Made by a program: the position numbers and the translations under genes | Shown here: positions 34,642 through 52,701 of the stretch, one piece after another | Numbering within the stretch: position 1 is the first letter of the stretch | Layout: every line of letters begins with the position of its first letter | Origin: Mesorhizobium metallidurans STM 2683 | Lineage (GTDB): Bacteria > Pseudomonadota > Alphaproteobacteria > Rhizobiales > Rhizobiaceae | Length of the DNA: 64,000 nucleotides | Direction: 5' to 3' | Assembly: GCF_000350085.1 (NCBI RefSeq) | Contig: NZ_CAUM01000117.1 | Span: 1-64,000, forward strand | The notes under the pieces: generated by a model | What the model was told of the DNA's origin: nothing | Seen by the model: only the letters and a program-made list of their open reading frames with translations | Databases searched by the model: none

Positions 34642-34652
34642 CGTATCGTCCC

Positions 34653-36664: not shown

Positions 36665-37695
36665 CGCCGCTCCCCGGCCTGGCTGTCGCCGCGGCGCCTG
36701 ACCAGAACCTGCGCCGACACGCTGAGGATGATCAGCGCCTGGATGACGGTGATGATCTCGCGCGACGCGCTGGTATCGACTTCGAGCAGCAGCGATCCGC
36801 TGCGCAGGGCGCCGAAGAACAGCGCGGTGAAGATGGTGGCGACCGGCGAGCCGTTGGCAAGCAGCGCGGCGATCAGCCCATCGAAGCCGAAGCCGGGAGC
36901 GAAGCCCTCCATGAACCGGTGATGGACGCCGAGCGTCTCGATGCCGCCGGCCAGGCCGCCGACGGCGCCCGAAAGCAGCAGGACGACAAAGCCCTGTCGT
37001 TTCACGTTGACGCCGCCATATTCGGCGAATTTCGGCGCCGAGCCGACCATCGTCACGCCGTAGCCCCAACTGGTGTAGCGAAAGATCAGCGCCGCGCCGA
37101 GCGCCAGCACCAGGCCGATGACCAGGCCCCAGTTCAACCGCGAGAAGCTGAACAGTTCCGGCAGATAGGCCGTCGGCAGGATCGGCGGCGTCTCCGACCA
37201 GCCGCCTGGCCGCTTGAAAAGGAAGATCGTGAAATAGGAGGTGAGCAGCACCGCGACGTAGTTCGACAGGATCGTCGAGACGACCTCGTTGGTATTGTAG
37301 CGGGCACGGAAATAGGCGGGGATGGCAACCCAGGCAGCACCGGCCACAACCGCCAGCGCCAGCGCCGCCAGCATGTGAATGCCGGGAGGCAGCGGCATGG
37401 CGAAGCCGACCCAGGCGGCAGCAAAGCCGCCGAGGAAAAGCTGGCCCTCGATGCCGACATTGAACATGCCGCCGCGCAGGCCGATGCAGGCAGCTATGCC
37501 GCAGATCAGGATCGGCGTCGTCTGCAGCAAGGTGCCGGCGATCTTTTCCTGATCGCCGAAGGCGCCGCGCAGAAGCGTCATCAAGACACGCACCGGGCTT
37601 TCGCCGACCAGGAGAATGATGATCGCACCCAGGATCAGCGCCACGGCGACGGCGATGACCTGACCGGAAACCTCACGCAAGCGATCCCTGATCAT
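36652..37695 (-). CDS. BMP-type ABC importer permease 1
   Basis: A 347-residue membrane protein with about nine to ten hydrophobic segments. GLRGGMFNVGIEGQLFLGGF and GVHHRFMEGFAPGFGFDGLIAALLANG are diagnostic for the larger BMP-type permease. It overlaps the upstream ATPase by four bases and the next permease by 13, so expression is coupled along the whole operon. Confidence 0.9.
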   Translation of the reverse strand: MIRDRLREVSGQVIAVAVALILGAIIILLVGESPVRVLMTLLRGAFGDQEKIAGTLLQTTPILICGIAACIGLRGGMFNVGIEGQLFLGGFAAAWVGFAMPLPPGIHMLAALALAVVAGAAWVAIPAYFRARYNTNEVVSTILSNYVAVLLTSYFTIFLFKRPGGWSETPPILPTAYLPELFSFSRLNWGLVIGLVLALGAALIFRYTSWGYGVTMVGSAPKFAEYGGVNVKRQGFVVLLLSGAVGGLAGGIETLGVHHRFMEGFAPGFGFDGLIAALLANGSPVATIFTALFFGALRSGSLLLEVDTSASREIITVIQALIILSVSAQVLVRRRGDSQAGERRWKF

Positions 37696-39263
37696 GCCGG
37701 CTCCGCAGCGCGTTCCGGCGCGGCCACGCCCGCCATCATCATGCCGATACGATCTTCGTCCGCGCCATCGCCGGCGACCTCGCCCATGATCCGCCCGTTG
37801 AACATCACCAGGATGCGGTCGGCAAGTGCGGCAAGTTCGTCGAGCTGCACGGATATCAAAAGGATGGCACGACCGGCGGCGCGCTGACGCATGATCTCGT
37901 CATGGATGGCCTCCTGCGCGCCGATGTCGACGCCGCGCGTCGGCTGATCGATCAGCAGGAAATCGGCGCCGTTGGTGAATTCGCGCGCCAGCACGACCTT
38001 CTGGATATTGCCGCCCGAAAGCCGCTTCACCGCATCGCCCGGTCCTTGCGCGCGAATGTCGAAATCCTTGATCAGCCTGGAGGCATTCTGGCTGATGGCG
38101 GTCCAGTTGAGCACGCCGCTGCTGCTCCAAGGTGCGCGGTGCTGCCGGCCCATCAGCATGTTTGCCGCAATCGATGCGTTGCGGTCGACACCGCGCACCA
38201 TCCGGTCGCCCGGAACATGGGCGAGACCGGCTTCGCGGATGTCTCTGGGGAAAAGCGTGGCAAGATCCCGGCCCTTCAGCCGGGCCGCGCCGTGGCTCGC
38301 AGGCCGCAGGCCCGAAAGCACCTCCGCCAGTTCCGTTTGCCCGTTGCCGGCAACGCCGGCGATCCCCACGACCTCGCCGGAGCGGACCGTGAAGCTGACA
38401 TTGCGCAGCGCCGGCAACCGGCGGTCGTCGCGCGCCCACAAGTCCTTGACTTCGAGCACGACGTCGCCTTGCGACGGCGCGCGCGGCCGGCGGTCGAAGC
38501 TGACCTCACGGCCGACCATCATGCGCACCAACTCGTCCTTGCTGAGTTCGGCCGTCGGGCGCGTCGCCACCCTCTTGCCGTTGCGCAGCACCGTCACCGT
38601 GTCGGAGACCTCCATCACCTCTTCCAGATGGTGCGAAATGAAGATCACCGTCATGCCTTCCGCCACGAAGCTGCGCAGCGTCTGGAACAGTTCGCGGCTC
38701 TCCTGTGGCGTCAGCACCGCGGTCGGTTCGTCGAGGATGATGGTGCGCGCGCCGCGCACCAGCACCTTCAGGATTTCGATGCGCTGCTCTATGCCGACCG
38801 AGAGCAGCCCGACGCGCTCGGTCGGATCGACCTGCAGCCCGAACCGCTTCGACAGTTCACGCGTGCGTGCGATCTGCGCGGCATGGTCGATCAGCCCATG
38901 GCGACAGATCTCCATGCCGAGAAAGACGTTGTCGGCGACCGAGAGCGAGGGAACCAGCTTGAAATGCTGATGCACCATGCCGAGGCCCGCCTTGATGGCG
39001 ACGGCCGGGTCGGTGACCACCGTCTCTTCGCCGTTCAGCCGGATCGAGCCTTCGTCGGGCTGCAGCAGCCCGAACAGGATGTTCATCAGCGTCGTCTTGC
39101 CGGCGCCGTTCTCGCCGATGATGGCGTGGATTTCGCCCCGGCGCACGGCAAGGTCGATGCCGTCATTGGCAACGAACGCGCCGAAACGCTTGGTGATGCC
39201 CGTCAATGCGACGGCCATCTCGGCTTTCATATGAAGGGTCGGCGACCCGGCGTTCGACACCAT
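37692..39263 (-). CDS. BMP-type ABC importer ATPase (two NBDs)
   Basis: A 523-residue double ATPase. The first domain has IIGENGAGKTT, MVHQHFKLVPSLSV, LSVGIEQRIEILK and TIILDEPTAVL; the second has GVAGNGQTEL, LSGGNIQKVVLAREF and LLIDQPTRGVD. It energises the two following permeases. I start at ATG 39263 (GAGAG upstream); ATG 39230 would remove 11 residues and still leave a complete domain. A strong hairpin separates it from the binding-protein gene upstream. Confidence 0.92.
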   Translation of the reverse strand: MVSNAGSPTLHMKAEMAVALTGITKRFGAFVANDGIDLAVRRGEIHAIIGENGAGKTTLMNILFGLLQPDEGSIRLNGEETVVTDPAVAIKAGLGMVHQHFKLVPSLSVADNVFLGMEICRHGLIDHAAQIARTRELSKRFGLQVDPTERVGLLSVGIEQRIEILKVLVRGARTIILDEPTAVLTPQESRELFQTLRSFVAEGMTVIFISHHLEEVMEVSDTVTVLRNGKRVATRPTAELSKDELVRMMVGREVSFDRRPRAPSQGDVVLEVKDLWARDDRRLPALRNVSFTVRSGEVVGIAGVAGNGQTELAEVLSGLRPASHGAARLKGRDLATLFPRDIREAGLAHVPGDRMVRGVDRNASIAANMLMGRQHRAPWSSSGVLNWTAISQNASRLIKDFDIRAQGPGDAVKRLSGGNIQKVVLAREFTNGADFLLIDQPTRGVDIGAQEAIHDEIMRQRAAGRAILLISVQLDELAALADRILVMFNGRIMGEVAGDGADEDRIGMMMAGVAAPERAAEPA

Positions 39264-39279
39264 GGCTCTCGCAGATTGG

Positions 39280-39317
39280 ACGCTGATCCGTCGCGGCAAG
39301 CAGCGGCGGATCAGCGT
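39280..39317 (-). other. Hairpin between binding-protein and ATPase genes
   Basis: Fifteen-pair stem (39280-39294 with 39303-39317, one G-T pair) and an eight-base loop, between the binding-protein stop and the ATPase start. There is no T-run. Confidence 0.7.
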
Positions 39318-39350
39318 AGCGCTTTCTTGGGAGGATGCGCTGTTGTTGTC

Positions 39351-40355
39351 TTACTTCGCCTTGGCGATCTCGATCTTGCCGTCGAGGATGCCCTTCTTGA
39401 TCTCGTCAAGCTTGGTCGTCACGTCGGCCGGGATCGTCGGGGCGATGTCATCGCAGACCTTGACTTCGACGCCGCCCGAAGCGAGGTCGAAAGTGCGGGT
39501 GCCGGCAGTGACCTTGCGGCCCTCGACCTCGTCCTTGATCAGCGTGTAGACGGCGATATCGCCGCGCTTCAGCATGCTTGCGAGCACGTTTCCGGGAGCC
39601 GAGCTGCACATGTCGATGTCGACGCCGATCGAATATTTGTCGGCCGCCGCACTCGCCTGCATGACGCCTTCACCCGTCGGGCCGGCAACGTTGTAGACGA
39701 TGTCGGCGCCCTGGCCGTAAAGCGCCTGGGCAAGTTCGCTGCCCTTCGCCGGATCGTCGAAGGTTCCGGCGAAGACGGAGTTCACCTTCACGTCGGGTGC
39801 GGCATATTTGGCGCCTTGCTCGTAGCCGCCGAGGAAGTTGCGGATCACGGGAATGTCGCGGCCGCCGACAAAGCCGATCGCCTTGCCGTCGCCGATCTTG
39901 GGAAATTCGCTGCCCTTGGCCTCGATCATGCTGGCCAGCGCGCCGGCGACGAAGGATCCCTGCTCCTCGGCGAAATTGGCATAGATCATGTTGGGATTGT
40001 CGAGCACGCCGTCGATGAACACGAAGCGCTGGTCGGGATATTCCTTGGCGACCTTCTGCAGCGAATCCACCAGCTCCCAGCCCATCACGAAGATGAGGTC
40101 GTATTGCTTGGCCTTGGCGAGGTTCTCGAACTGCTCTTCGTAGTCGAGAGCGCGATTGCCGGTATCGACCAGTTTGAGGTCGATGCCGAAATCGGTCTTG
40201 GCCTTGTTGAGACCGTTGACGATGGAAACACCGAAGCCCTGTGCGAAATATCCCGAGATGGCGGCGATGGACACCTTGTCCTGTGCCGCGGCGGATCCGA
40301 ACGAGATGGCAAGCATCGTGCCGGCCATGAACAAACTCTTGAGCGCCCTTTTCAT
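39351..40355 (-). CDS. BMP-family nucleoside-type ABC substrate-binding protein
   Basis: A 334-residue exported protein with a Sec signal peptide (SLFMAGTMLAISFGSAAAQ, cleavage near 25) and the BMP/PnrA-like fold: SGYFAQGFGVSIVNGL, DLIFVMGWELVDSLQKVA, GFVGGRDIPVIRNFLGGYEQG, and VGVDID-type lobe IGVDIDMCSSAPGNVLASM. AGGGGAATGAC precedes ATG 40355. First gene of the operon with ATPase, two permeases and two nucleoside hydrolases. A good promoter and the regional regulatory motif lie 80-130 bases upstream. Confidence 0.93.
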   Translation of the reverse strand: MKRALKSLFMAGTMLAISFGSAAAQDKVSIAAISGYFAQGFGVSIVNGLNKAKTDFGIDLKLVDTGNRALDYEEQFENLAKAKQYDLIFVMGWELVDSLQKVAKEYPDQRFVFIDGVLDNPNMIYANFAEEQGSFVAGALASMIEAKGSEFPKIGDGKAIGFVGGRDIPVIRNFLGGYEQGAKYAAPDVKVNSVFAGTFDDPAKGSELAQALYGQGADIVYNVAGPTGEGVMQASAAADKYSIGVDIDMCSSAPGNVLASMLKRGDIAVYTLIKDEVEGRKVTAGTRTFDLASGGVEVKVCDDIAPTIPADVTTKLDEIKKGILDGKIEIAKAK

Positions 40356-40437
40356 GTCATTCCCCTTCAGCTTTTTTCAGCTTTTGAAGCCACGCCTTGA
40401 CCACCCGCGCATTGTGCCGAGACAGCCGGCTATTTTC

Positions 40438-40481
40438 GTTGATGGTCATATGAGTTTATGAGCGGCCCCGCAGGCTGTCAA
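40438..40481 (-). promoter_or_regulatory. Promoter and operator of the BMP/nucleoside hydrolase operon
   Basis: On the minus strand TTGACA (40481-40476), 17 bases, TAAACT (40458-40453), then directly TCATATGACCATCAAC (40453-40438), which covers the expected transcription start. The same 16 bases occur at 51546-51561. Confidence 0.7.
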
Positions 40482-40535
40482 TCGCCATGCGAGGCAGTTT
40501 CGTCGGACCTTTTTTCGCTTGCCTGACATCGAAGC

Positions 40536-40575
40536 TTGACAAATGGCGGCCGGGGATAATTGTTGATACTCTAAC
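40536..40575 (+). promoter_or_regulatory. Promoter/operator region of the DUF1185 pair
   Basis: TTGACA at 40536-40541; a convincing -10 box at normal spacing is not clear (GATAAT at 40555-40560 is 13 bases away). ATTGTTGATACTC (40559-40571) is identical over 13 bases to 44299-44311. CTAACGAGTTAG just after it (40571-40582) is a small palindrome. Confidence 0.5.
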
Positions 40576-40608
40576 GAGTTAGCAAACGACGGGAAGAGAG
40601 AGCGGACA

Positions 40609-41193
40609 ATGCCGGCTGTGGTCGTCAGGAAATTTCTGGTTCAGGTCGAGGAGATATTTCATGAAGGCGGTCCCCCTGCCGCGCGTCCGCTCAAGCGCGG
40701 CGCGGTCGTGGCCGTCATCGCCAATCCCTTTGCCGGGCGCTATGTCGAAGAGATCACCGGGTTCATGGACGATCTGAAGCCGCTCGGTCTCGATATGGCT
40801 CGACGCCTGATCGACGCCATCGGCGACGGCGCCTCGGCGATCGAAGGCTATGGCAAGGGCGCCATCGTGGGTGCTGCCGGTGAGCTCGAACACGGCGCGC
40901 TCTGGCACAATCCGGGCGGCTACGCGATGCGCGAGTTGCTCGGAAACGCCAGGGCGATCGTGCCCTCGACCAAAAAGGTCGGCGGCCCCGGCACGCGGAT
41001 CGACATTCCGATCACGCACATCAATGCCTCTTATGTGCGCAGCCATTTCGATGCGATCGAGGTCGGCGTCACCGACGCGCCGCGCGCAGACGAGATGGCG
41101 GTCATCCTGGCGATGACCACCGGTGCGCGGGTTCATGCGCGGGTGGGTGGCCTTGCCGCCGCCGATATCAAGGGCGAGGACGGATTGAGATGA
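40609..41193 (+). CDS. Amino acid synthesis (DUF1185) family protein, copy 1
   Basis: A 194-residue cytoplasmic protein of the DUF1185/'AA_synth' family, whose reaction is not established to my knowledge. Visible family blocks: AVVAVIANPFAGRYVEEI, AIVGAAGELEHGALWHNPGG, THINASYVRSHFDAIEVGVTDAPRADEM and ARVHARVGGL. It overlaps a second, clearly paralogous copy by four bases. Transcribed divergently from the nucleoside importer, with a related motif in the shared spacer. The context (nucleoside hydrolases, enamidase-like and isochorismatase-fold enzymes) suggests a step in breakdown of an N-containing compound, not amino acid synthesis. Confidence 0.88.
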   Translation: MPAVVVRKFLVQVEEIFHEGGPPAARPLKRGAVVAVIANPFAGRYVEEITGFMDDLKPLGLDMARRLIDAIGDGASAIEGYGKGAIVGAAGELEHGALWHNPGGYAMRELLGNARAIVPSTKKVGGPGTRIDIPITHINASYVRSHFDAIEVGVTDAPRADEMAVILAMTTGARVHARVGGLAAADIKGEDGLR

Positions 41194-41774
41194 GCGCAGA
41201 GATCCGCCGGATCATCACCATCGTCGAGGAAACCTTGAGCGAGGGCGGCCGTCCCGTCGATCCGCCGACCCGCCGTGCGGCAGCCATTGCCGTGATCCGC
41301 AACCCTTATGCGGGCGCCTATGTCGAGGATCTGTCGGCGTTGAGCGACATCGGCGAGGAACTGGGCGAGATTTTGCCGAAGCGCGCGGTTGCGGCACTCG
41401 GCATTCCCGGCAACCGGGTCGAGAGCTTCGGCAAGGCGGCCGCGGTCGGTGCCGATGGTGAACTGGAACATGCCGCAGCCATCCTTCACCCCAAGCTTGG
41501 CGCGCCGTTCCGCGATGTTCTTGGCAAGGGTGCGGCGCTCATTCCTTCGTCGAAGAAACGCGGCGGCCTCGGCGTGCCGCTCGACATCCCGCTCGGCCAC
41601 AAGGACGCGGCGCGGGTGCGCAGCCATTTCGACGGCATGGAGGTTCGCGTGCCCGACGCGCCGCGTGCCGACGAGATCGTCGTCGCCATCGCCGTGGCCG
41701 ATTCCGGCAGGCCGCACCCACGCGTCGGCGGGCTGACCACGGACAGGATCGTCGGCAAGGACGGCGTCAGCTGA
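41190..41774 (+). CDS. Amino acid synthesis (DUF1185) family protein, copy 2
   Basis: A 194-residue paralogue of the preceding gene with the same blocks in the same order (IAVIRNPYAGAYVEDL, AAVGADGELEHAAAILHP, RVRSHFDGMEVRVPDAPRADEI, PHPRVGGL). Equal length and moderate identity suggest subunits of a hetero-oligomer or enzymes for successive steps. ATG 41190 overlaps the first copy. It converges on the amidohydrolase gene 24 bases away. Confidence 0.88.
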   Translation: MSAEIRRIITIVEETLSEGGRPVDPPTRRAAAIAVIRNPYAGAYVEDLSALSDIGEELGEILPKRAVAALGIPGNRVESFGKAAAVGADGELEHAAAILHPKLGAPFRDVLGKGAALIPSSKKRGGLGVPLDIPLGHKDAARVRSHFDGMEVRVPDAPRADEIVVAIAVADSGRPHPRVGGLTTDRIVGKDGVS

Positions 41775-41798
41775 TCACGTACCTGACAGTCTGCGCCA

Positions 41799-43004
41799 TC
41801 ATCCGGATACGACTTCCGGCACCCGCATTGCCGGTGGCGTGTTGCGGCTCCGGCCGGTCCGCGTCACGCCGTCGATGACGACCATTCCTATACCCGGAAG
41901 ATTGCCCTGCACCATGCTGTCGAGCAGCCCGTCGCCGGCCCCGCCGATCGCCTGATCCATGAAGACCAGGTCGGCGGCGCGGCCGACCTCGATCATGCCG
42001 CGATCGTGCAGCCCGCGCACTCGCGCCGGGTTGCCGCTGGCAAGGCAGAACGCCACTTCCGGCGCGACGCCGCCCAGCGAGGCCAGCATGGTCAGGGTCC
42101 GAAGGATGCCGAGCGGCTGCACGCCGGATCCGGCCGGGCTGTCGGTGCCGAGCACGATGCGTGAAAGTTCGCCACGCTCTTTGGCAAGGCCGAGCACGAA
42201 CAGTCCGGTGCGCAGATTGCCGTTGTGGACGATTTCCAGCGCCCGCGAGCCTTTCTCGCAGATTTGCCGGATTTCCGCTTCGGGCAGCGCCGTCGGTCCG
42301 CCATTGACGTGGGCGACAATGTCGGCGTCGACCTCAAGCACGGTATCCGCGCCGATGCGGCCTGAGCCGGGCAGGGACGGCCCGCCGGTATGGGTCATCG
42401 AGGTCATGCCGTATTTGCGTGCCCAGGCGATCATCTGCCGGCCGGTAGGCCCGTCCTTGACGCCGCCGAGGCCGACTTCGCCGATAAGCGTCACACCGGC
42501 TTCGGCCAAATAGCGGAAATCCTCTTCGGTCAGGCCGGGTTCCAGGATCGGCGCTCCGGCCAGGATCTTCATGCCGTTCGGGCGGAAATTGGAGAAGGTC
42601 CGCTGCGCCGCGATGGCCAATGCCTTCAGCCCGACCAGATCGCGCGGGCGGCCCGGCGTATGGACCTCTCCCGCCGAGACGATGGTGGCAACACCACCAT
42701 GCACCGTCGAATCCATCCAGCCGATCTGGTTCTGCCGCGGCGTCCAGTCGCCGGCCACCGGATGCACGTGATTGTCGATAAGCCCGGGCGCGACCGCCGA
42801 GCCGCCGGCGTCGATCACGGTGTCGGCAGCACCGACGTCAAGCGCGCCAGCCTTGCCGATCGCGGTGATCTTGCCGTCGACCGCGACGATCGTGTCGGCG
42901 TCGAGGATCGGCCGGCCGAGATCGCCGGAAAGCATCAGACCGATATTGCGCACGACAAGCGTGTTGGGTTTCGGGTCGTGCGACATCGGCACCTCGTCTG
43001 TCAT
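41799..43004 (-). CDS. Enamidase-like amidohydrolase
   Basis: A 401-residue metal-dependent hydrolase of the amidohydrolase superfamily. It has the N-terminal beta-sandwich, the metal motif DNHVHPV in APGLIDNHVHP, GEVGLGGVKDG, SMTHTGG, HVNGGPTALPE and the C-terminal GTDSPAGSGVQPLGILR. This combination matches enamidase, the enzyme that opens the ring of 6-oxo-tetrahydronicotinate in nicotinate fermenters, better than dihydroorotases or imidazolonepropionases. The start may be ATG 43004 or ATG 42986 (GAGGTG upstream). Third gene of the isochorismatase-MarR operon. Opening of a cyclic amide is likely; the substrate is unknown. Confidence 0.82.
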   Translation of the reverse strand: MTDEVPMSHDPKPNTLVVRNIGLMLSGDLGRPILDADTIVAVDGKITAIGKAGALDVGAADTVIDAGGSAVAPGLIDNHVHPVAGDWTPRQNQIGWMDSTVHGGVATIVSAGEVHTPGRPRDLVGLKALAIAAQRTFSNFRPNGMKILAGAPILEPGLTEEDFRYLAEAGVTLIGEVGLGGVKDGPTGRQMIAWARKYGMTSMTHTGGPSLPGSGRIGADTVLEVDADIVAHVNGGPTALPEAEIRQICEKGSRALEIVHNGNLRTGLFVLGLAKERGELSRIVLGTDSPAGSGVQPLGILRTLTMLASLGGVAPEVAFCLASGNPARVRGLHDRGMIEVGRAADLVFMDQAIGGAGDGLLDSMVQGNLPGIGMVVIDGVTRTGRSRNTPPAMRVPEVVSG

Positions 43005-43028
43005 TCCTGGAAGTCGTTGCGACGCGAA

Positions 43029-43586
43029 TTATTTCCCGACGTCGCCATTCGACGGATCGTCGTCATTGATGCGGTTGAGCAGGCGAAGCAGCGTCGCCTG
43101 CTCGGCTGGCGTGAGCGGCGACAGAAACCGCCGCCCGACTTCGACGCTGCGTTCGAGTCGGTCGAGCGTGTATTTGGTTCCCATGTCGGTCAGCGCGATC
43201 ATCGACAGCCGCTGGTCGGTGTCAGAGGCGCTGCGGGTGATCAGCCCGTTCTTGAGAAGCTTGCGGACAACGATGCTGATGGTCGAGGGATCCATCGCGG
43301 TCAGCCGTCCCAAATGGTTCTGCGAGACCTCGCCATGCCTGAGGATCGTCGCAAGCGCGGCGAACTGCGTCGGCGAAAGGTCTTCGCCCGCCATCACCTG
43401 TTGGAAGCGCAGCGTCGCGCGCTGATGCGCCCGGCGAATCACGTGCGCTGGATGGCGATCGAGCTCGTAGCCGGTCTTGGCGTATCGCTGCAGCACCTGC
43501 TCGCGGCTCAGCGGCTTGGCGTCGTCGCCTGATCCCTTGGGCGCCGCTGCGCTGCTTTCGGGTTGCGATTCGATCTCAGTCTTCAC
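43029..43586 (-). CDS. MarR-family transcriptional regulator
   Basis: A 185-residue winged-helix regulator. It has a long polar N-terminus, LSPTQFAALATILRHGEVSQNHL, the recognition helix region TAMDPSTISIVVRKLLKNGLI and the wing RSASDTDQRLSMIALTDMG. GTG 43586 follows AGGAG. It lies between the isochorismatase and enamidase genes in one operon. It is the only regulator gene between 33.6 and 51.6 kb, so it is the best candidate to read the TATGA-N2-ATCAA motif found before five units there; this is an inference. Confidence 0.92.
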   Translation of the reverse strand: MKTEIESQPESSAAAPKGSGDDAKPLSREQVLQRYAKTGYELDRHPAHVIRRAHQRATLRFQQVMAGEDLSPTQFAALATILRHGEVSQNHLGRLTAMDPSTISIVVRKLLKNGLITRSASDTDQRLSMIALTDMGTKYTLDRLERSVEVGRRFLSPLTPAEQATLLRLLNRINDDDPSNGDVGK

Positions 43587-43635
43587 GCCGCACTCCTGTC
43601 GCCGCTGTCTCGGATGCCGCAGTCTCGAAAGACGT

Positions 43636-44280
43636 TCAAGCCGCGACTTCAGTCGGTTGAAGCGACGTTCCGTCGCGAAGGGCCGCGACGACGCTCGCCG
43701 AATCGCTGACCACGCCGAAATGCGTCGCTATGTCGTAGAGCGAACTTTCCTGCTCGCGCGGCCCGGTCGCCGCGCAGCAATCGCTGGGCACCACCACTTC
43801 ATAGCCCTGGAAAAAGGCGTCATGGACGGTCGAGCGCACGCAGATATTGGTGACCACGCCGAAGATCACCAGTTGATCGACCTGCATGTCTTTGAGGGTC
43901 AGGTCGAGGTCGGTTTGAAAAAACGCCGAGTAGCGCCGCTTGATCAGGTGGATTTCATCGTCACGGGCACCAAGGTCCTCGATGATTTCCGGCCCCCAAC
44001 TGCCCTCGAGGCAATGCGGCGTGCGCTTCACCCATTCGCGCTCGCGCCGCATGCCGGCCCGATGGGTGTCGTGGACCCAGATAATTGGCACGCCGCCGGC
44101 GCGCGCGGCCTCGATGACGGCCAGTTGCGGCACGACCAGCGTCTCGTATCCCGGCAGCACCATGGCGCCGCCGGGCTTGCAGAATTCATTGACCATGTCG
44201 ATGACGATAACCGCCGCGCGTTGCGGATCAAGGCGCATCGCGTCATCGTGCCGATGTGAGGAAAAACTATCCACGGGCAT
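43636..44280 (-). CDS. Isochorismatase-fold cysteine hydrolase
   Basis: A 214-residue hydrolase with the complete catalytic triad: Asp28 in VIDMVNEF, Lys114 in IKRRYSAFF and Cys147 in VVTNICVRSTVHDAF. Members of this fold that keep the Cys hydrolyse amides such as nicotinamide, maleamate, ureidoacrylate or N-carbamoylsarcosine. ATG 44280 follows AAAGGAG. First gene of the operon with MarR and the enamidase-like protein, so it probably removes ammonia or a carbamoyl group before or after ring opening. Confidence 0.9.
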   Translation of the reverse strand: MPVDSFSSHRHDDAMRLDPQRAAVIVIDMVNEFCKPGGAMVLPGYETLVVPQLAVIEAARAGGVPIIWVHDTHRAGMRREREWVKRTPHCLEGSWGPEIIEDLGARDDEIHLIKRRYSAFFQTDLDLTLKDMQVDQLVIFGVVTNICVRSTVHDAFFQGYEVVVPSDCCAATGPREQESSLYDIATHFGVVSDSASVVAALRDGTSLQPTEVAA

Positions 44281-44298
44281 GGCGAGCTCCTTTGGTCG

Positions 44299-44342
44299 AT
44301 TGTTGATACTCATACAAAAAACCGTCGCGGATGCCAAGTCAA
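44299..44342 (-). promoter_or_regulatory. Promoter and operator of the isochorismatase-MarR operon
   Basis: On the minus strand TTGACT (44342-44337) followed about 18-20 bases later by TTTGTATGAGTATCAA (44318-44303), which continues as CAAT. This carries the TATGA-N2-ATCAA motif at the expected start region. Confidence 0.6.
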
Positions 44343-44425
44343 TCCCGTTAAAGCAAAGCCGCTTGCCGAATCGGCGCAAGCCGGTCCGACGAGGGCTTGC
44401 GCCGTTTTCCGTTGCGAAAATGGCA

Positions 44426-44471
44426 TTGACAAGGGGGTACGATCACGTGTTCGATTTGTATGACCATCAAT
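44426..44471 (+). promoter_or_regulatory. Promoter and operator of the epimerase/SDR operon
   Basis: TTGACA (44426-44431), 18 bases, TTCGAT (44450-44455), then TGTATGACCATCAAT (44457-44471). The motif stands in the same place relative to the -10 box as at 40438 and 51546. Confidence 0.65.
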
Positions 44472-44513
44472 GATATTCAATTCGCCAGACTTTGCCGGGC
44501 GGAGGGCTGAGCC

Positions 44514-45368
44514 ATGAGGACAATCGTTACCGGATCCAGCGGTCTGCTTGGCCGCCATGTTGCGGCAGCGCTGGCCGCTGCCGGTCATGATGTGTTGGGT
44601 ATCGATGCCGTCGCGCCTGGCACCGTGCCGTGGCGGCATGCGACCGCGGATCTGACCGATCTGGGATCGGCGCTGCAACTGGTACGCGATTGCGACGCGG
44701 TGGTCCATGTCGCGGCCATTCCGCGCCCGACCGGACGGGCCGGCGGCGAGGTGTTCAAGACCAATGTCGCGACCGCCTATAATGTCGTCGAGGCGGCCAC
44801 CATGGCTGGCGCCCGGCGCTTCGTCTACGCCTCGTCCTTCAGCGTTTTCGGTTATCCTTTCTTCGAGAAGACCGTGCGCCCACCCTATCTGCCCGTGGAT
44901 ATGAACCATCCCGTCGGCGCGCAGGATCCTTACGCGCTGTCGAAATGGCTCGGCGAGGAAATCGTCGACGCGGCGGTGCGCCGCGGCGCTTTTTCGGCCG
45001 TCAGCCTCCGCATGCCCTGGATCCAGACCCCGGAAACCTTCTTCGCCGGTGTCGGCCCGCGCCGCGCCACCGCCGACAGTGCCCGCGACCTGTGGAGCTA
45101 TCTCGACGCGCGCGACGCGGGCCAGGGCTTCCTGCGGGCGTTGCAATGGAGAGGCGCGGGCCATCTCCGCGTACTGCTCAGCGCCGCCGATACTTTCATG
45201 GAGGAGGAAACCGAGCCGCTGGTGCGCCGCGTCTATCCGGATGTCCCGCTGTCGCGGCCGATCGCCGGCCATGGCGCCGTGCTCGACACGAACCATGCCC
45301 GCGAAACGATCGGCTTCGAGCCCAGCCATTCGTGGCGCTCCTATCCCCAGCCGGAGTCTGGAAAATGA
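44514..45368 (+). CDS. NAD-dependent epimerase/dehydratase (extended SDR)
   Basis: A 284-residue extended SDR: cofactor motif TGSSGLLG at the N-terminus, VVHVAAIPRP, YASSFSVFG and the catalytic Tyr/Lys in DPYALSKWLGEE. Such enzymes oxidise or epimerise sugars, free or as nucleotide conjugates, and some act as uronate dehydrogenases. The pattern 'HVAAIPRP...YASSFSVFG' is common in the uronate dehydrogenase-like group, but I would not go further. It overlaps the next SDR by four bases. Confidence 0.87.
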   Translation: MRTIVTGSSGLLGRHVAAALAAAGHDVLGIDAVAPGTVPWRHATADLTDLGSALQLVRDCDAVVHVAAIPRPTGRAGGEVFKTNVATAYNVVEAATMAGARRFVYASSFSVFGYPFFEKTVRPPYLPVDMNHPVGAQDPYALSKWLGEEIVDAAVRRGAFSAVSLRMPWIQTPETFFAGVGPRRATADSARDLWSYLDARDAGQGFLRALQWRGAGHLRVLLSAADTFMEEETEPLVRRVYPDVPLSRPIAGHGAVLDTNHARETIGFEPSHSWRSYPQPESGK

Positions 45369-46171
45369 AGCGTTTCGACGAAAAATGCGTGCTCGTCACC
45401 GGTGGCGCCGGTGCGATCGGCAGTGCGGCGGTAAGGCGTTTCCTCGATGAGGGTGCAAAGGTCGCGATTGTCGACCGCAACGCCGAGGCGGCGCAGCAAC
45501 TGGCTCAGGCTCTGGGCGAGCACGCAGTGGCGATCGAAGCCGACGTCACCGATGAAGCCGACGTGCGGCGTGCCGTTGCAACGACAGTCGAGACCTTCGG
45601 CGGTCTCGATGCCGTCTTCAACAATGCCGGCATTTCCGGCGCCGTCGCGCCGGTTCACGAACTGCCTGTCGAGGACTGGGACACGATCATCCGCATCAAT
45701 CTGCGCGGCATGTTCCTCGTCCTGCAGGCATCGCTTCGGGCGATGATCGCGGCCGGCAATGGCGGCTCGATCGTCAATATGGGCTCGTCCATGGCCGGCT
45801 GGGACGTGCTCGCCGGCGGCGCCGGCTATGTCGCCTCAAAGCATGGCGTGATCGGGCTGACGCGGGTCGCAGCACTCGATGCCGCGCCCTACGGCATACG
45901 CGTCAACGCCATCTGCCCGGGCGTGATCGAGACGACGCTCGGCGTGCCGGCGGCCGGCGACGGCGATTTCAAGAGCAGCGTCCAGCATTTCGCCGACCGC
46001 ATCCCGTTGCGCCGTATCGGCCAGCCGGACGATGTCGCGGCCACCGTGGCCTTCCTCGCCTCCGACGAGGCCAGGCATGTCACCGGCGCGGACTGGCTGA
46101 TCGACGGCGGCCAGACCTTGCAGAGCTGGGCCAACGCGCCGGCCGGCGGCGCGTTTCCGAAATTCAGGTAA
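45365..46171 (+). CDS. Short-chain dehydrogenase/reductase
   Basis: Classical 268-residue SDR with TGGAGAIG, Asp in VDRN (NAD preference), NNAGISG, the Ser of NMGSSMAGW, Tyr/Lys in YVASKHG and the C-terminal TGADWLIDGG. It probably oxidises a sugar or sugar alcohol. ATG 45365 overlaps the previous gene. The pair is transcribed away from the isochorismatase operon under a shared regulatory motif, so it may handle the sugar part of the compound whose base is processed by that operon. Confidence 0.9.
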   Translation: MKRFDEKCVLVTGGAGAIGSAAVRRFLDEGAKVAIVDRNAEAAQQLAQALGEHAVAIEADVTDEADVRRAVATTVETFGGLDAVFNNAGISGAVAPVHELPVEDWDTIIRINLRGMFLVLQASLRAMIAAGNGGSIVNMGSSMAGWDVLAGGAGYVASKHGVIGLTRVAALDAAPYGIRVNAICPGVIETTLGVPAAGDGDFKSSVQHFADRIPLRRIGQPDDVAATVAFLASDEARHVTGADWLIDGGQTLQSWANAPAGGAFPKFR

Positions 46172-46207
46172 AACATATACCGTGTCATTGGGGCTGGCGC
46201 AGTCGCG

Positions 46208-47278
46208 TCAAAGCCTCTTTGGCGGCATTGCCTGGATGATCTGGACGGCGAGATCGAGGTCGGCAAGCCCGCCCGAAAGCGGCGTGCGCGGTGTCGCACC
46301 CGCCAGGATGCAGTCGGCGAAATGCAGCCATTCGCGCCGGAAGGCGGTGTCGGGAATGCCCGGTATCACGCGTTCGGATGCCGTCTCGCCGGCCGCTTCG
46401 CGCACCCGCACGATCGCCGAGGCATTGCGGAAATAGGGGTTCTGGAAATCGATCCGCACCTCGTCGCGCTCGCCATGCACATGGATCCATTCGTCCCACC
46501 ATTCATATTGGGCGAGCGCCATGTCGAAGATACAGGGGATGCCGTCATAGTCGAGCACGGCCAGAAGCTGGTTCGGGCCGGTCTGCTGCGCGTGCACGAC
46601 GCGGCTCGGGGTGCCGAACGCGCCGCGCATGACGGCAAGATCGTGGCTGCTCAGGCCGAGCAGCAGGAGATAGAGGTCGCGATAGCCGGCATGCTCCGGC
46701 CCCAGTGCCGCCTCGACGCGTCGTGCGACGGCGTCTCTCCCGGCCGCGAGCAGATCGGCCGGCACATCGGCGATGCGGGTCTGCGTATAGAGCTTGCCGT
46801 AGCGGTCGAAGCGGCCGGCGAAATCGTGGACATGGATCGACTTCGGCTTGCCGATGGCGGCGATGCGCTCGAGGCCGATCTCATAGCCTGGATCGTAGAG
46901 TTTCATGTAGCCGACAAGGGCAACGAGGCCGCTGCGTTCGGCCTGCTCGACCAGCGGGCGTGCCTCCTCAGGTGTGAAGGCAAGCGGCTTCTCGACGATC
47001 AGATGCTTGCCGGCGCGGATGGCATCAGTGACCATCTCGCCATGGTCGTAGGTGCAGATCACCACGGCGTCGATATCAGGATCGGCGAGCAGGGCGCGAT
47101 GGTCGGTATAGCGGGCCGCGACACCATAATGCTCCCCGACCTTGTCGACCGTGCCGGGTGAGATGTCGCAGAGCGCGGCGATGCGAAACGCAGGCAATTC
47201 CTGGAGATAGGGCAAGTGCATCAACTGGGCGATCTCGCCGCAACCGATAACGCCAACGCCGATAACGCGATCCTGCAT
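46208..47278 (-). CDS. Gfo/Idh/MocA-family oxidoreductase
   Basis: A 356-residue NAD(P)-dependent dehydrogenase: Rossmann motif GVIGCGEIAQ, DAVVICTYDHGEMVTDAI and the signature EKPLAFT with its catalytic Lys, then a C-terminal alpha/beta sheet domain used for dimerisation. Family members oxidise cyclitols, glucosides or sugar acids. It is the last gene of the CUT1 transport operon, one base after the permease, and so likely acts on the imported sugar. The other end converges with the SDR gene. Confidence 0.9.
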   Translation of the reverse strand: MQDRVIGVGVIGCGEIAQLMHLPYLQELPAFRIAALCDISPGTVDKVGEHYGVAARYTDHRALLADPDIDAVVICTYDHGEMVTDAIRAGKHLIVEKPLAFTPEEARPLVEQAERSGLVALVGYMKLYDPGYEIGLERIAAIGKPKSIHVHDFAGRFDRYGKLYTQTRIADVPADLLAAGRDAVARRVEAALGPEHAGYRDLYLLLLGLSSHDLAVMRGAFGTPSRVVHAQQTGPNQLLAVLDYDGIPCIFDMALAQYEWWDEWIHVHGERDEVRIDFQNPYFRNASAIVRVREAAGETASERVIPGIPDTAFRREWLHFADCILAGATPRTPLSGGLADLDLAVQIIQAMPPKRL

Positions 47279-47279
47279 G

Positions 47280-48173
47280 TCAACCCTTGACGGCGCCGGC
47301 CGTCAGGCCGGCGATGAACTGCCGTTGCATGGCGATGAAGACGACGATCACCGGCAGTGTCGTGATCGTCAATGCGGCGAAATAGAGTGTCCAGAGCGAG
47401 TCGTATTGCTGGAAGAAGCTGACCAGCCCGAGCGGAATGGTCTGCACGGACGGGTCGCGCAGGAGCAGGAAGGCGAGGAAGAAATCGTTCCAGATCTCGA
47501 TGAAGCCGAAGATCAGGATCAGCGCCACGCCCGGCCGGATCAGCGGCAGCATGATATGGATCAGGATCGCCAGCCGGCTGGCGCCATCGACGCGCGCGGC
47601 GTCTTCCAAATCGGCGGGCAACGTGACGAAGAAGCTGCGCAGGATGAAGACCGAAAGCGGCAGGGAGGTCGCGGCGTAGACGAAGGCGATGCCGAGCCGG
47701 TTGTTGATCAGGCCGAGATCGCGCGCCACCATGAACAGCGGAATGGCCATGACTTGCGGCGGCACCAGCATGGCCGCCACGGCCACCGCCAGCACAAGGC
47801 CGCGTCCGCGAAAACGAAGGCGCGCCAGCGCATAGGCGCAGGGCGTCGCCACGACGACCAGGATGATCAATGCCGAACCGGTGACGAAGACGCTGCTGAC
47901 GATGCGCGATCCCATGCCGGCGATGCGCCAGGCATCGGCATAGTTCTGGAACACGAGGCTCGATGGCGGCCCCCAGATGTTGCTCAGCATTTCCTGCTTG
48001 GTCTTGAGCGAGCCGAACAGCACCCAAAGCAGCGGATAGATCGTCTCCATGAGCACGAGCACGAGCGCGGCATAGATGCTCACGAGTTCGAGAATGCCGC
48101 GTGCGCCGAGGCGGCGGCGATGGCTGGCCATACCGTTGCCAAGCGAAAGAGAAGGGTTGGCCGCGCCGCTCAT
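47280..48173 (-). CDS. CUT1 sugar ABC importer permease (MalG-like)
   Basis: A 297-residue membrane protein with six segments and the cytoplasmic EAA loop LEDAARVDGASRLAILIHIMLP near residue 200, which docks the ATPase. FIEIWNDFFLAFLLL is the usual MalG-type segment after it. Its ATG shares one base with the stop of the partner permease. No ATPase gene is found in this operon, so it must use one encoded elsewhere. Confidence 0.92.
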   Translation of the reverse strand: MSGAANPSLSLGNGMASHRRRLGARGILELVSIYAALVLVLMETIYPLLWVLFGSLKTKQEMLSNIWGPPSSLVFQNYADAWRIAGMGSRIVSSVFVTGSALIILVVVATPCAYALARLRFRGRGLVLAVAVAAMLVPPQVMAIPLFMVARDLGLINNRLGIAFVYAATSLPLSVFILRSFFVTLPADLEDAARVDGASRLAILIHIMLPLIRPGVALILIFGFIEIWNDFFLAFLLLRDPSVQTIPLGLVSFFQQYDSLWTLYFAALTITTLPVIVVFIAMQRQFIAGLTAGAVKG

Positions 48174-49102
48174 CAGACGTCAAGCCTTTGCCGCCGCATC
48201 AGGGCGAGCAGCCCGACGCTGGCCAGCCCGACGATCAGGAAGAGCACGTAGCCGATGGCCGCGGCATAGCTCATGGCGCCGTCCTGGAAGGCCTTGCTCA
48301 TCATGTAGGTGAGCACGACCTCGGTGGCGTGGTTCGGGCCGCCCTTGGTCAGGACATAGACGATGTCGAAGTTGCGAACGAAGGCGCCGGAAAGGCCGAG
48401 AATGGTGTTGATGAAGACGATCGGCATCATCATCGGCAAGGTGACATGCCAGAAGCGCTGGACCGGTCCCGCACCGTCCATCTTCGCCGATTCGTAGAGC
48501 TCGGACGGGATCGTCTGCAGCCCCGCCAGATAAATGACGGCGTGGAAGCCCAGCCATTTCCAGACATCGACGACGATGATCGAATAGAGCGCTATATTGG
48601 CGTCGCCAAGCCATGACTGTTTCAGTCCGCCGAGGCCGAAAAGATCGAGCGCGCCATTGAGCAGCCCGAAGACCGGATTGTAGATCCAGGACCAGAGCAG
48701 TCCGACGGCGACGAAGGACATCGTCACCGGGATGAAGGCGGCGGCGCGAAAGAAGGTGCGGCCGATGAGCGCCCGGTTGAGCAGCAGCGCCAGCCCGAGA
48801 CCCAGCACGTTCTTGAGCACGACGACGGCGACGACGAAAATCAGATTGTTGCGCAGCGCGCCGAGAAAGATGCGGTCGTGCGCGAGGCGCTGATAGTTGG
48901 AAAAGCCTGCCCATGTCGGGTCGGAGAATCCGTCCCAATTGTGCAGGCTGAGCCAGAAACCGTTGACGAAGGGCCAGAGGTAGAACAGACAAAAAAGGAT
49001 CGCGGCCGGCAGGATCATGACGAAGGCCACCGCGCCATCGCCTGAAACGAAGCGCCCGAAACGGCTCGTGGAAGGAGCCGCCTCTTGCGGTCGCGTGCTC
49101 AT
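48173..49102 (-). CDS. CUT1 sugar ABC importer permease (MalF-like)
   Basis: A 309-residue membrane protein with six predicted segments; the EAA loop reads LYESAKMDGAGPVQRFWHVTLP. FLFYLWPFVNGFWLSLHNWDGFSD near the start is typical of MalF/UgpA-type subunits. It forms a heterodimer with the next permease. It overlaps the isomerase gene by four bases upstream (49099-49102). Confidence 0.92.
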   Translation of the reverse strand: MSTRPQEAAPSTSRFGRFVSGDGAVAFVMILPAAILFCLFYLWPFVNGFWLSLHNWDGFSDPTWAGFSNYQRLAHDRIFLGALRNNLIFVVAVVVLKNVLGLGLALLLNRALIGRTFFRAAAFIPVTMSFVAVGLLWSWIYNPVFGLLNGALDLFGLGGLKQSWLGDANIALYSIIVVDVWKWLGFHAVIYLAGLQTIPSELYESAKMDGAGPVQRFWHVTLPMMMPIVFINTILGLSGAFVRNFDIVYVLTKGGPNHATEVVLTYMMSKAFQDGAMSYAAAIGYVLFLIVGLASVGLLALMRRQRLDV

Positions 49103-50037
49103 GCGGCCTTCGCGGTTTTCGGCGTCAGCACCAGCCCGAGCGTGTCGCCGATATAGGCGATGCTCTCCAGCGTGCTCTGCTCGGCCGTCTTCTTCGAAGC
49201 GTCCAGTTCGATGATGGCAAGGCCATCGTAGTTCGCTTCAAGCAGCACGTCGACGATTCCCGCGAGATCGACGACACCGGCGCCGAGCTCGCAAAAGGCG
49301 CCGTAACGGTCGTAGCCTTTCAGCGCCGGATCGACCTTGGTGTCCTTGAAATGCATGTAGCGCACGGCCGGGATGTAGGTCCTGACCACATCGACCGGAT
49401 CGGAGTTGGTATGGGCAAGATGCGCCGGATCGATGCAGAGGCCGGCAAGGTCTGTATCGAGTTCATCCATCATCCGGTCGAGCTGGTCGCGGCGTTCGAT
49501 GAAGGTGTCGAGATGCGGGTGATAGACCGTCTCGATGCCGAGGTCCTTGGTCCGCTTGCCGATATCCTCGAGCGCGCGGCAAAAGGCGTGGTAGTCGTCG
49601 GCGGTGTGAGGGCCGGCAATGGCTTCCGACGGGCCGCCGCCCAGAACCAGCACCGGTGAGCCGAAACCCTTCAGCATCCTGGTCAGCGCGACAAGCACAT
49701 CGCGCTCATAGGGCCAGGCGACAGGGTTGGTGAAGATCGCGTTCACATAGAAGGAGGAGAGCTTGATGCCATACTCGCTCTGGCCTTCCGAGAGCAGCGC
49801 GTAGCGCCGCAATATGTCGGTATCGGTCGTGACTCCCATCGGCGCCTGATTGCCGAGCTGCATGTATTTGCGGGCGTACTGGTCCGAGAGGCTGGTGAAG
49901 GCGAGGATCTCGAACCAGCCGAAACCCTGATCGGCCAGGAATTTCATGGCCGGTCTGAGCGGAAGGCCGGTCAGGTCCCAGCTGTTCAGGTGATAGCCGA
50001 TCGAGAAGCGCTGCCGCTCGGCGCGATTTGTCGTCAT
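49099..50037 (-). CDS. Sugar phosphate isomerase/epimerase-like TIM barrel
   Basis: A 312-residue AP-endonuclease-2-type barrel of the IolE/IolI kind. Probable metal ligands: Glu in GIETVYHPHLDTF, Asp/His in LCIDPAHLAHT, His in RYMHFKDTK and Glu in LAIIELDAS. It begins at ATG 50037 (AAGGGAC upstream). Between the binding protein and permease genes of a CUT1 importer and in one operon with a Gfo/Idh oxidoreductase, it suggests an inositol-like or keto-sugar route: oxidation by the latter and isomerisation or dehydration by this protein. Substrate unknown. Confidence 0.88.
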   Translation of the reverse strand: MTTNRAERQRFSIGYHLNSWDLTGLPLRPAMKFLADQGFGWFEILAFTSLSDQYARKYMQLGNQAPMGVTTDTDILRRYALLSEGQSEYGIKLSSFYVNAIFTNPVAWPYERDVLVALTRMLKGFGSPVLVLGGGPSEAIAGPHTADDYHAFCRALEDIGKRTKDLGIETVYHPHLDTFIERRDQLDRMMDELDTDLAGLCIDPAHLAHTNSDPVDVVRTYIPAVRYMHFKDTKVDPALKGYDRYGAFCELGAGVVDLAGIVDVLLEANYDGLAIIELDASKKTAEQSTLESIAYIGDTLGLVLTPKTAKAA

Positions 50038-50110
50038 GTCCCTTGTCTCCGGTAAGCGAGGCAGCCCGAGACGGGCGGCCTCCTTGTTCAATGGCTAGTT
50101 TTCATGCCTG

Positions 50111-50150
50111 GCGCATCAGCCCGGCTGGATGCGCACTCGCCTGCAGGCGA
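50111..50150 (-). other. Two hairpins just after the CUT1 binding-protein gene
   Basis: TCGCCTGCAGGCGA (50137-50150) is a perfect 14-base palindrome two bases after the stop codon. GCGCATC (50111-50117) pairs with GATGCGC (50128-50134) with an AGCC/GGCT inner stem. There is no T-run. Confidence 0.65.
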
Positions 50151-50152
50151 CT

Positions 50153-51496
50153 TCACTTGGGCGGCCAGTTGCCCTGCGCCCTAAGGTCGTCGAAGGTGGT
50201 CTGGATCGAGGCCGCGGCATCCTCTGGCGTCGTCGTGCCGCCGACGATGCCGGCGATTGCCGAGGCGGTGGCACTCGCTACTTCCGATGGCCAGATCCAG
50301 TCGAGGAACTTGATCGTGCTCGGGAAGGCTTCCTTGCGCAGCTCGACGGCATAGGCGTCGTCAACCTGCGGCACGCCCTTGATCGAAGCCGCGATCGGCT
50401 GCTCCGGAGCAAGATAGAGCGTCGCCACCTCTGGCCGGGTCAGATACTCGACAAACTTGATGGCCGCGTCGAGCTTCTCTGGCGGGATCGACGAGGCCAC
50501 GCAGATGCCGTTGTCGGCGCCGCCGCCATGGCCTGGCGCGCCCGGCGTTCCGTCCATTTTCGGAAAGGCGAAGACGCCCCATTTGAAGTCCTTGACGCTC
50601 GTCTGGAGCGACGGGATTTCCCAGGTGCCGCCATAATACATGGCGCTCTTGCCGGCGGCGAAAGCCGCGCGCATGCCGTCCTGGTCGACGGAAAGCGAAT
50701 CTTTGGAAAGGATGCCGTCATCGACCCACTGCTTGATCAGCTTGAACCCTTCGACGTCAGGCGCATCGGTGAATTTCGCCGTGCCTTCCAGGTTCTTCTG
50801 CGTCTTGCCGATCGGGTCGCCCGAAGCCTGCGAAAAGGTCTCGAAATACCACATCGGCCACATGACGGTGTTCGAGCCCTGATGCAACAGCGGGATCACG
50901 CCTTCGGTCTTGAACTTCGGCACGGCCGCCTTCAGGTCGGCATAGGTCGGCGGCGCCTTGATGCCAAGCTTCTGGAAGAGGTCGACATTGTAGAAGATCG
51001 TCGATGTCGACAGGGTGGAGATGGGAACGCCATAGACCTGGCCGTTGATCGTGAACGCGCCGAGTGCCGCGGCATCGATCCTGTCCTGGAATGGTTTGAT
51101 CTTGTCGGTGATAGGCATCACCAGCTTGCGCCGGACATAGGCGCCATTGGTGTAGAAGGCCGGGCAGGCGATCAGGTCCATTTCCTGGCTGGCCAGCTTG
51201 GCGGTCATCACCCGCTGGATGGAATCGGTCTGCGGCCCCTGCGCGTCCCACTCGACCGCCGAGACGTCGGGATTGGCTTTGAGGAAGCCGTCAATGACCT
51301 GCTGCTGAATCTTCTTCTGCTCGTCCGGCGGTTGACGCGGAGCGAGCTGGTCGAGGGCCGAACCGCCGAAAACCTTGAGGGTGATCCCATCGGCAAGGAC
51401 GGTGCCGGGCATCGCGATCAGGCTCAGGCTGAGCAGTGCGGCAAGGATGGCGGGGCTTTGTTTTGAACGATGGGTCACTCTCTGCTGAACGGGCAT
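50153..51496 (-). CDS. CUT1 sugar ABC importer substrate-binding protein
   Basis: A 447-residue exported protein of the family 1 solute-binding type. Signal peptide ILAALLSLSLIAMPGTVLA ends near residue 35. Then come VFGGSALDQLAPR, the mid-lobe GVPISTLSTSTIFYNVDLFQ (the 'YNKDLF' signature region), AAGKSAMYYGGTWEIPSL and the C-terminal helix ATLYLAPEQPIA. ATG 51496 follows AAAGGAGAG. First gene of the operon with isomerase, two permeases and Gfo/Idh; hairpins follow its stop. Confidence 0.93.
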   Translation of the reverse strand: MPVQQRVTHRSKQSPAILAALLSLSLIAMPGTVLADGITLKVFGGSALDQLAPRQPPDEQKKIQQQVIDGFLKANPDVSAVEWDAQGPQTDSIQRVMTAKLASQEMDLIACPAFYTNGAYVRRKLVMPITDKIKPFQDRIDAAALGAFTINGQVYGVPISTLSTSTIFYNVDLFQKLGIKAPPTYADLKAAVPKFKTEGVIPLLHQGSNTVMWPMWYFETFSQASGDPIGKTQKNLEGTAKFTDAPDVEGFKLIKQWVDDGILSKDSLSVDQDGMRAAFAAGKSAMYYGGTWEIPSLQTSVKDFKWGVFAFPKMDGTPGAPGHGGGADNGICVASSIPPEKLDAAIKFVEYLTRPEVATLYLAPEQPIAASIKGVPQVDDAYAVELRKEAFPSTIKFLDWIWPSEVASATASAIAGIVGGTTTPEDAAASIQTTFDDLRAQGNWPPK

Positions 51497-51545
51497 CTGG
51501 CTCTCCTTTACGCCAATGCCGAGGGGCAACCTCGGGACCAAGATC

Positions 51546-51590
51546 GTTGATGGTCATATGATCTTGGTCGCCTGTTTAGAATTTTGTCAA
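51546..51590 (-). promoter_or_regulatory. Promoter and operator of the CUT1 operon
   Basis: On the minus strand TTGACA (51590-51585), 18 bases, CAAGAT (51566-51561), then TCATATGACCATCAAC (51561-51546), identical over 16 bases to the site before the BMP operon at 40438. Confidence 0.7.
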
Positions 51591-52410: not shown

Positions 52411-52422
52411 CACACTCTCCTT

Positions 52423-52452
52423 TGGATATACGTCAGGCGGTATGTATATCCA
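52423..52452 (-). promoter_or_regulatory. Palindromic operator of the VapBC pair
   Basis: TGGATATAC (52423-52431) and GTATATCCA (52444-52452) form perfect 9-bp arms with a 12-base spacer just upstream of the antitoxin gene, fitting dimeric AbrB-type autoregulation. Confidence 0.65.
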
Positions 52453-52471
52453 TGGGAGGTTGGTTTCAAGA

Positions 52472-52693: not shown

Positions 52694-52701
52694 GATGCAG
52701 G

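Follow-up and report, generated by a model that had tools for sequence, protein, structure and literature searches.

Five promoters within 11 kb of the genome of Mesorhizobium metallidurans STM 2683 share one exact 18-base element, YYRTWWGASYAYCAAYRA, and these are the only five copies in the 6.23-Mb genome. The promoters lie in a 64,000-nucleotide stretch (contig NZ_CAUM01000117.1, positions 1 to 64,000; hereafter the window) and serve operons for a BMP-type importer with nucleoside hydrolases, a DUF1185 pair, an isochorismatase-fold protein with a MarR-family regulator and an enamidase-like enzyme, an epimerase with an SDR dehydrogenase, and a CUT1 sugar importer. Judging from sequence comparison, we consider it highly probable that a single local repressor, the MarR protein encoded at 43029-43586, uses all five sites as its operators. 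Phylogenetic footprinting, the near-absence of the site elsewhere in the genome and its co-occurrence with MarR give strong support to a common control of the five operons; we strongly infer that this MarR is the cognate regulator, and the whole very likely constitutes a local MarR-repressed regulon. The repressor gene, the predicted operators and the -35 boxes are as follows.

43029..43586, minus strand: MarR-family regulator, proposed repressor (PF01047, E 1.9e-13, 50.5 bits against a cut-off of 24.6)
40436..40453, minus strand: predicted operator 1, TCATATGACCATCAACGA, of the BMP/nucleoside hydrolase operon; exact 18-mer
40476..40481, minus strand: -35 box TTGACA of the BMP operon, 22 bases ahead of operator 1
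40560..40577, minus strand: predicted operator 2, TCGTTAGAGTATCAACAA, of the DUF1185 pair, reversed relative to its gene; exact 18-mer
40536..40541, plus strand: -35 box TTGACA of the DUF1185 pair, 18 bases ahead of operator 2
44300..44317, minus strand: predicted autoregulatory operator 3, TTGTATGAGTATCAACAA, of the isochorismatase-MarR-enamidase operon; exact 18-mer
44337..44342, minus strand: -35 box TTGACT of the isochorismatase operon, 19 bases ahead of operator 3
44456..44473, plus strand: predicted operator 4, TTGTATGACCATCAATGA, of the epimerase/SDR operon; exact 18-mer
44426..44431, plus strand: -35 box TTGACA of the epimerase/SDR operon, 24 bases ahead of operator 4
51544..51561, minus strand: predicted operator 5, TCATATGACCATCAACGA, of the CUT1 sugar importer operon; exact 18-mer
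51585..51590, minus strand: -35 box TTGACA of the CUT1 operon, 23 bases ahead of operator 5

The original prediction placed one operator-like motif before each of the five operons, and every sequence it quoted was found in position: the same 16 bases, TCATATGACCATCAAC, occur at 40453-40438 and 51561-51546 (both minus strand), and three other copies lie at 44457-44471 (plus; TGTATGACCATCAAT), 44318-44303 (minus; TTTGTATGAGTATCAA) and 40563-40575 (plus; TTGATACTCTAAC). The control element proved longer than first noted. Identity between the first two copies reaches 18 bases (TCATATGACCATCAACGA), and averaging the information content across the related loci described below gives an 18-base element, after which T is preferred and beyond which the flanks are otherwise weak. 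In this longer form the motif is indeed common to all five promoters, and the genome-wide search found no exact copy elsewhere.

Counts within the window were not striking: the 12-mer of the original prediction, at two or fewer mismatches, has 8 matches against 4.9 expected, and 12 of 100 shuffles reach 8. Because these early statistics were weak, genome-wide and comparative tests were used instead. The exact 12-mer occurs five times in the genome, four of them within the 11-kb stretch; the fifth (C172:61420, on another contig) lies inside an open reading frame resembling, by eye, that of an importer binding protein, and was rejected as a candidate site. The 16-mer TYRTATGASYATCAAY has four exact genomic matches, all of them in this stretch; there are no one-mismatch matches and 13 two-mismatch ones, and its reversed pattern has 9 at two or fewer mismatches. 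The DUF1185 site is only one of the forward pattern's 13 two-mismatch matches and is thus not significant on window and genome counts alone. We regard it as genuine because it is conserved before the corresponding gene (labelled DUF1185a) in 41 of 47 related loci, 39 of which have an upstream TTGAC box. It had been described as a weaker, reversed relative of the other sites; it is reversed, and it matches the 18-mer exactly.

The placement of the element suits a repressor. A TTGACA or TTGACT box precedes the 18-mer by 18-24 bases at each of the five promoters, so that the element would overlap the start site and the last part of the -10 region. Such placement had been proposed for three of the five; the placement stands, and the count becomes five. 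Could MarR bind these sites as an activator, or with mixed sign? Some MarR-family proteins do activate, and one of the sites is reversed relative to its gene, but sites beginning 18-24 bases past the -35 box are not where an activator is expected, and near-consensus TTGACA boxes should not require one; we consider this very improbable. A further reading, in which the motif belongs to the core promoter as an extended -10 and is no operator, is hardly credible. The motif does fall near the expected -10 position at every promoter, but at the four promoters where it is gene-oriented TATGAC or TATGAG does not begin until 22-27 bases past the -35 box, a spacing too long for a -10; moreover, the distance from -35 box to motif varies, and the genome holds no further exact copy.

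We collected 55 loci (1.05 Mb) by scanning genome contigs with the MarR protein, which is thus present in all of them by design; their titles name Mesorhizobium, Aminobacter, Kaistia, Bosea, Bauldia, Prosthecomicrobium, Methylobacterium and others. In three of them, L087-L089, only a MarR of 46-49% identity was found, with no target genes. Across the loci the 12-mer is matched 102 times exactly and 128 times at one or fewer mismatches, against none and 0-16, respectively, for each of its controls (the reversed form and six shuffles). Exact 18-mers number 159, none of them inside aligned genes, and the reversed control gives none. Per-operon counts were strand-aware, requiring a site oriented to the gene with at most one mismatch to the 18-mer. 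With this definition, a site with a TTGAC box stands upstream of the BMP genes in 41 of 41 loci, before the CUT1 binding protein gene (SBP) in all 23 loci that have it, and ahead of the epimerase gene (EPI) in 37 of 42; before DUF1185a the reversed orientation is itself conserved. An oriented site precedes the isochorismatase-fold gene (ISOC), first of the MarR operon, in 32 of 50 cases; in 8 of the 18 misses (L071, L073, L077-L081 and L083, which include Kaistia, Bosea and Bauldia) ISOC and MarR lie behind the BMP genes, whose promoter has the site. TTGACA or TTGACT lies within 16-27 bases for 171 of the 174 sites listed; among these, the box is TTGACA at 41/41 BMP sites and TTGACT at 32/32 ISOC sites. 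As a control, we took 11 genes that lie inside operons in the window; their 372 upstream stretches hold a single site at one or fewer mismatches, and no match to the reversed pattern. The sole exception precedes NH2 of L086, a rearranged Microvirga locus in which no BMP gene was found.

The sites travel with their operons through rearrangement and onto another contig. For example, the CUT1 operon of G114 lies on a separate contig and keeps an exact site with its TTGACA box. Several details of individual loci may be recorded here. In the Microvirga locus (L086, positions 2499 and 9730) the site at one or fewer mismatches stands right before NH2-NH1, and a two-mismatch match lies between EPI and MarR. 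A reversed motif-like sequence, GTTGGTACTCAA, stands immediately ahead of the operator of the relocated CUT1 operon of G114 (L175, 4366-4395). In the Aminobacter loci L059-L061 a degenerate second motif with three mismatches lies 20 bases upstream of the BMP operator, possibly a tandem site. Both divergent sites of a genome from another family (G231; L190 1210-1227, minus, and 1377-1394, plus) read TTGTATGATCATCAA, one mismatch from the consensus.

The distribution of the site follows that of the regulator. Among 146 genomes of the genus, with MarR presence taken as a match at E 1e-40 or better, the 18-mer occurs in 40 of 40 genomes with MarR and in 1 of 106 without, and the reversed control occurs in 3 genomes. 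In the lone MarR-less genome (G026) the match is not preceded by TTGACA within 45 bases and was rejected as a candidate site. The 16-mer is found in 34 genomes, all among the 40 carriers, and in none of the other 106. An order-wide sample of 397 genomes contains 12 besides the window's own that carry SBP, some possibly of the same species as in the 55 loci; all 12 have MarR, and all have a site with 0-1 mismatch that follows a TTGAC box, so that no genome of this sample has the target operon without MarR. The 16-mer occurs in 19 genomes of the order sample and its reversed control in 4; nine of the 19 have single matches (G042, G219, G232, G248, G293, G320, G400, G431 and G458).

These distributions also bear on whether the 18-mer could be the operator of another regulator encoded elsewhere, for example a sugar regulator of GntR or LacI type, with MarR controlling other things or merely travelling along. 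A core regulator of that kind would be expected to have sites elsewhere, but among the matches listed the off-locus ones are at or near the control level, and genus genomes without this MarR lack sites, with the single exception given above. No other gene family was found in more than 13 of 50 loci (10-kb flanks; L084 and L086-L089 left out). In favour of another regulator, the averaged motif is only weakly dyadic, ten of 50 loci have no site oriented to the MarR operon, and one part of the motif, TTGTATGACCA, fits the FadR-type GntR operator pattern, TNGTNNNACNA. This pattern was rejected as the identity of the element: it fits TTGTATGACCA only, is broken by TCATATGACCA, TTGTATGAGTA and TCGTTAGAGTA, and fails at most sites. 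Overall, we consider control by another regulator unlikely.

Several observations nonetheless weigh against the assignment of the sites to MarR. A MarR dimer is expected to bind a dyad, and the dyad score of the 18-mer is 0.41 against 0.27 +/- 0.09, a value reached by 8.5% of column permutations; some distant sites are near-perfect dyads (TTGTTTGAGCACAAACAA). The ten loci just mentioned (L065, L066, L068-L070, L072, L074, L075, L085 and L090) have neither an ISOC-oriented site nor MarR behind the BMP genes, which indicates that autoregulation is not uniform; in nine of them a site is present in the upstream stretch, divergently oriented, and L066 has only a two-mismatch match. DUF1185a is without a site in L069, L070, L074, L075, L086 and L090, as is EPI in L071, L074, L075, L086 and L090; in L074, L075 and L090 EPI is located downstream of the CUT1 operon and shares its strand. 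L084 encodes the same MarR helix, yet its 11.6 kb contain neither target genes nor a site. Because the loci used to fit the 18-mer overlap with the genomes tested, the sensitivity count is partly circular. Finally, MarR and its sites are physically linked, so that their co-occurrence is not independent evidence, and co-inheritance alone could explain the phyletic match.

What does the MarR protein itself suggest? In a comparison with PDB structures its best match is 2nnn, and it aligns with BpsR (6pcp/6pco) without gaps over 139 residues (E 1.8e-12). Among the site-bearing loci its recognition helix, MDPST(I/T)S.V..KL, shows almost no variation; the helix of the paralogues L012-L035 is different. 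BpsR of Bordetella is a MarR-family protein that represses nic genes and is released by 6-hydroxynicotinate through Tyr15, His23, Arg26 and His32, according to PMC6837509. Tyr15, His23 and Arg26 correspond to Tyr40, His48 and Arg51 here, whereas the position of His32 is Ala57 in the MarR of all 55 loci, so that three of the four contacts, and not the full set, are kept. The pocket is Tyr-His-Arg-Ala in 51 of 55 loci; in the remaining four the His23 position is taken by Phe (three loci) or Tyr (one). Of the DNA-facing residues that PMC6837509 names, most differ too. Like BpsR, the present MarR is linked to putative N-heterocycle breakdown genes, but its predicted targets are nucleoside hydrolases and a BMP importer, whereas those of BpsR are nicC and nicE.

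We propose that a MarR dimer would sit on each 18-bp site, cover the -10 and start region and so silence all five operons, among them the one that encodes it. A ligand, either the substrate itself or something formed from it and probably with a hydroxypyridine-carboxylate-like ring, would then bind the pocket at the dimer interface, and ligand-bound MarR would release the DNA and allow all five operons to be induced. The induced set would comprise a nucleoside-type importer, nucleoside hydrolases, a ring-opening enamidase-like enzyme, an amidase, the DUF1185 pair, sugar dehydrogenases and a second sugar importer. Their genes are as follows.

33709..40355, minus strand: BMP-type ABC importer (binding protein, ATPase, two permeases) and two nucleoside hydrolases
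40609..41774, plus strand: two DUF1185 genes (PF06684, 'AA_synth')
41799..43004, minus strand: enamidase-like amidohydrolase (2VUN enamidase, E 3.5e-109, residues 16-398)
43636..44280, minus strand: isochorismatase-fold amidohydrolase (PF00857; ATG at 44280 after AGGAG)
44514..46171, plus strand: NAD-dependent epimerase/dehydratase family protein and SDR dehydrogenase
46208..51496, minus strand: CUT1 binding protein (ATG at 51496), two permeases, IolE-like protein and Gfo/Idh/MocA dehydrogenase

The enamidase-like protein matches 2VUN over nearly its full length, and the HxH, HTGG, HxNGGPTA and DxP motifs align (motifs and metal ligands judged by eye). The isochorismatase-fold protein (query 43636-44262) matches RutB (8bkd) at E 8.4e-30, over residues 83-195 only. 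Among the CUT1 importer genes (46208..51496) no ATPase was seen. In the reductive nicotinate pathway, to which the 2VUN enamidase belongs, the enamidase acts once 6-hydroxynicotinate has been reduced. Azorhizobium is described as reducing 6-hydroxynicotinate to 1,4,5,6-tetrahydro-6-oxonicotinate, and this step has also been proposed for a Bradyrhizobiaceae strain (PMC3511419). Unlike the 2VUN enamidase, the present enzyme is predicted to be co-regulated with nucleoside uptake and cleavage. When the protein was compared with 46 genomes (28 of the same genus) at E 1e-40, matches were found in G000, G009 and G014, which carry the locus, and in G040, of another genus, at 45% identity. Taken together, the enamidase match and the three retained 6-hydroxynicotinate contacts suggest that a nicotinate- or pyridone-type nucleoside may be the substrate, and this is our leading candidate.

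More tentatively, and with considerable doubt, we suggest that the five operons encode an undescribed catabolic route for such nucleosides (e.g., nicotinate riboside or an oxidised pyridone riboside), in which the BpsR-like MarR senses the released hydroxypyridine-type base, the nucleoside hydrolases free the sugar, the enamidase-like enzyme, the isochorismatase-fold amidase and the DUF1185 pair open and degrade the ring, and the co-regulated dehydrogenases oxidise the sugar. The original prediction had one regulator tie nucleoside-type import, base and amide hydrolysis, sugar oxidation and a second sugar importer into one pathway; the shared control is strongly supported and a single pathway for the five operons is plausible, with its content changed to a nicotinate- or pyridone-type base. 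If true, the route would mean that DUF1185 proteins take part in N-heterocycle breakdown. A role in amino-acid metabolism has been suggested for DUF1185 (PF06684) from fold and neighbourhood (PMC2954203).

A local MarR-controlled catabolic regulon is a kind of system already known. PcaV and other MarR repressors have local catabolic targets. The present MarR matches PcaV (4fht) at E 3.1e-14 and, as with PcaV, its gene lies inside its own predicted target set; unlike PcaV, it is assigned five separate promoters across 11 kb. Neither this operator nor this gene set was found described in the available portions of the literature searched (DUF1185, MarR regulons in Rhizobiales, BpsR, enamidase and 6-hydroxynicotinate). 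Searches linking MarR, Mesorhizobium and nucleoside hydrolase returned nothing, as did those for nicotinamide riboside, rhizobia and nucleoside hydrolase, and the pathway for a nucleoside-like compound is perhaps undescribed. The analysis brings 18 genes from five operons, together with one regulator and one operator, into a single predicted unit conserved in several related genera. Such a unit makes tests of function direct, in that one deletion should expose the whole set, and the regulon offers a concrete handle on DUF1185.

The genus also carries a second MarR locus. In 21 same-genus paralogue loci (L015-L035) a MarR 35-40% identical to the present one stands beside a DUF1185 protein of 61-68% identity. 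This second MarR differs from the first in its pocket, which is Tyr-Phe-Arg-His in the 21 loci, and in its recognition helix. Inspection by eye of the paralogue loci L012-L035 showed no equivalent site upstream of the DUF1185 or MarR genes. The second loci that were read (G000, G034 and G003) encode, in an operon-like row with MarR, a presumed UPF0280-like protein, a protein of 513-514 residues and a large protein; the last is a molybdenum hydroxylase in the G000 copy, and the 513-residue protein gave no family match. In the window's own genome all that is left of the DUF1185 gene expected next to this second MarR is a short remnant, which lies between the MarR gene and the UPF0280-like one (L140, about 5150-5265; G000:C172, about 43150-43265), unlike the 21 same-genus loci, which hold a full DUF1185. 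For G073, G100 and G161 only two DUF1185 matches are listed.

Finally, we note other genes of the window. A 217-residue open reading frame at 52180-52833 (minus strand), divergent from a proline racemase gene, encodes a MazE/AbrB-type domain at residues 144-177; it was considered as a GntR regulator and rejected, being MazE-like and having no match in the 55 loci. Open reading frames for a proline racemase, a DUF1349 protein, a Gfo/Idh/MocA protein, a DHDPS-family protein, an aldehyde dehydrogenase and a GMC oxidoreductase follow in a row at 52833-59912, perhaps another catabolic set. A large LuxR-type regulator with an AAA ATPase domain is encoded at 29801-32479 (plus strand).

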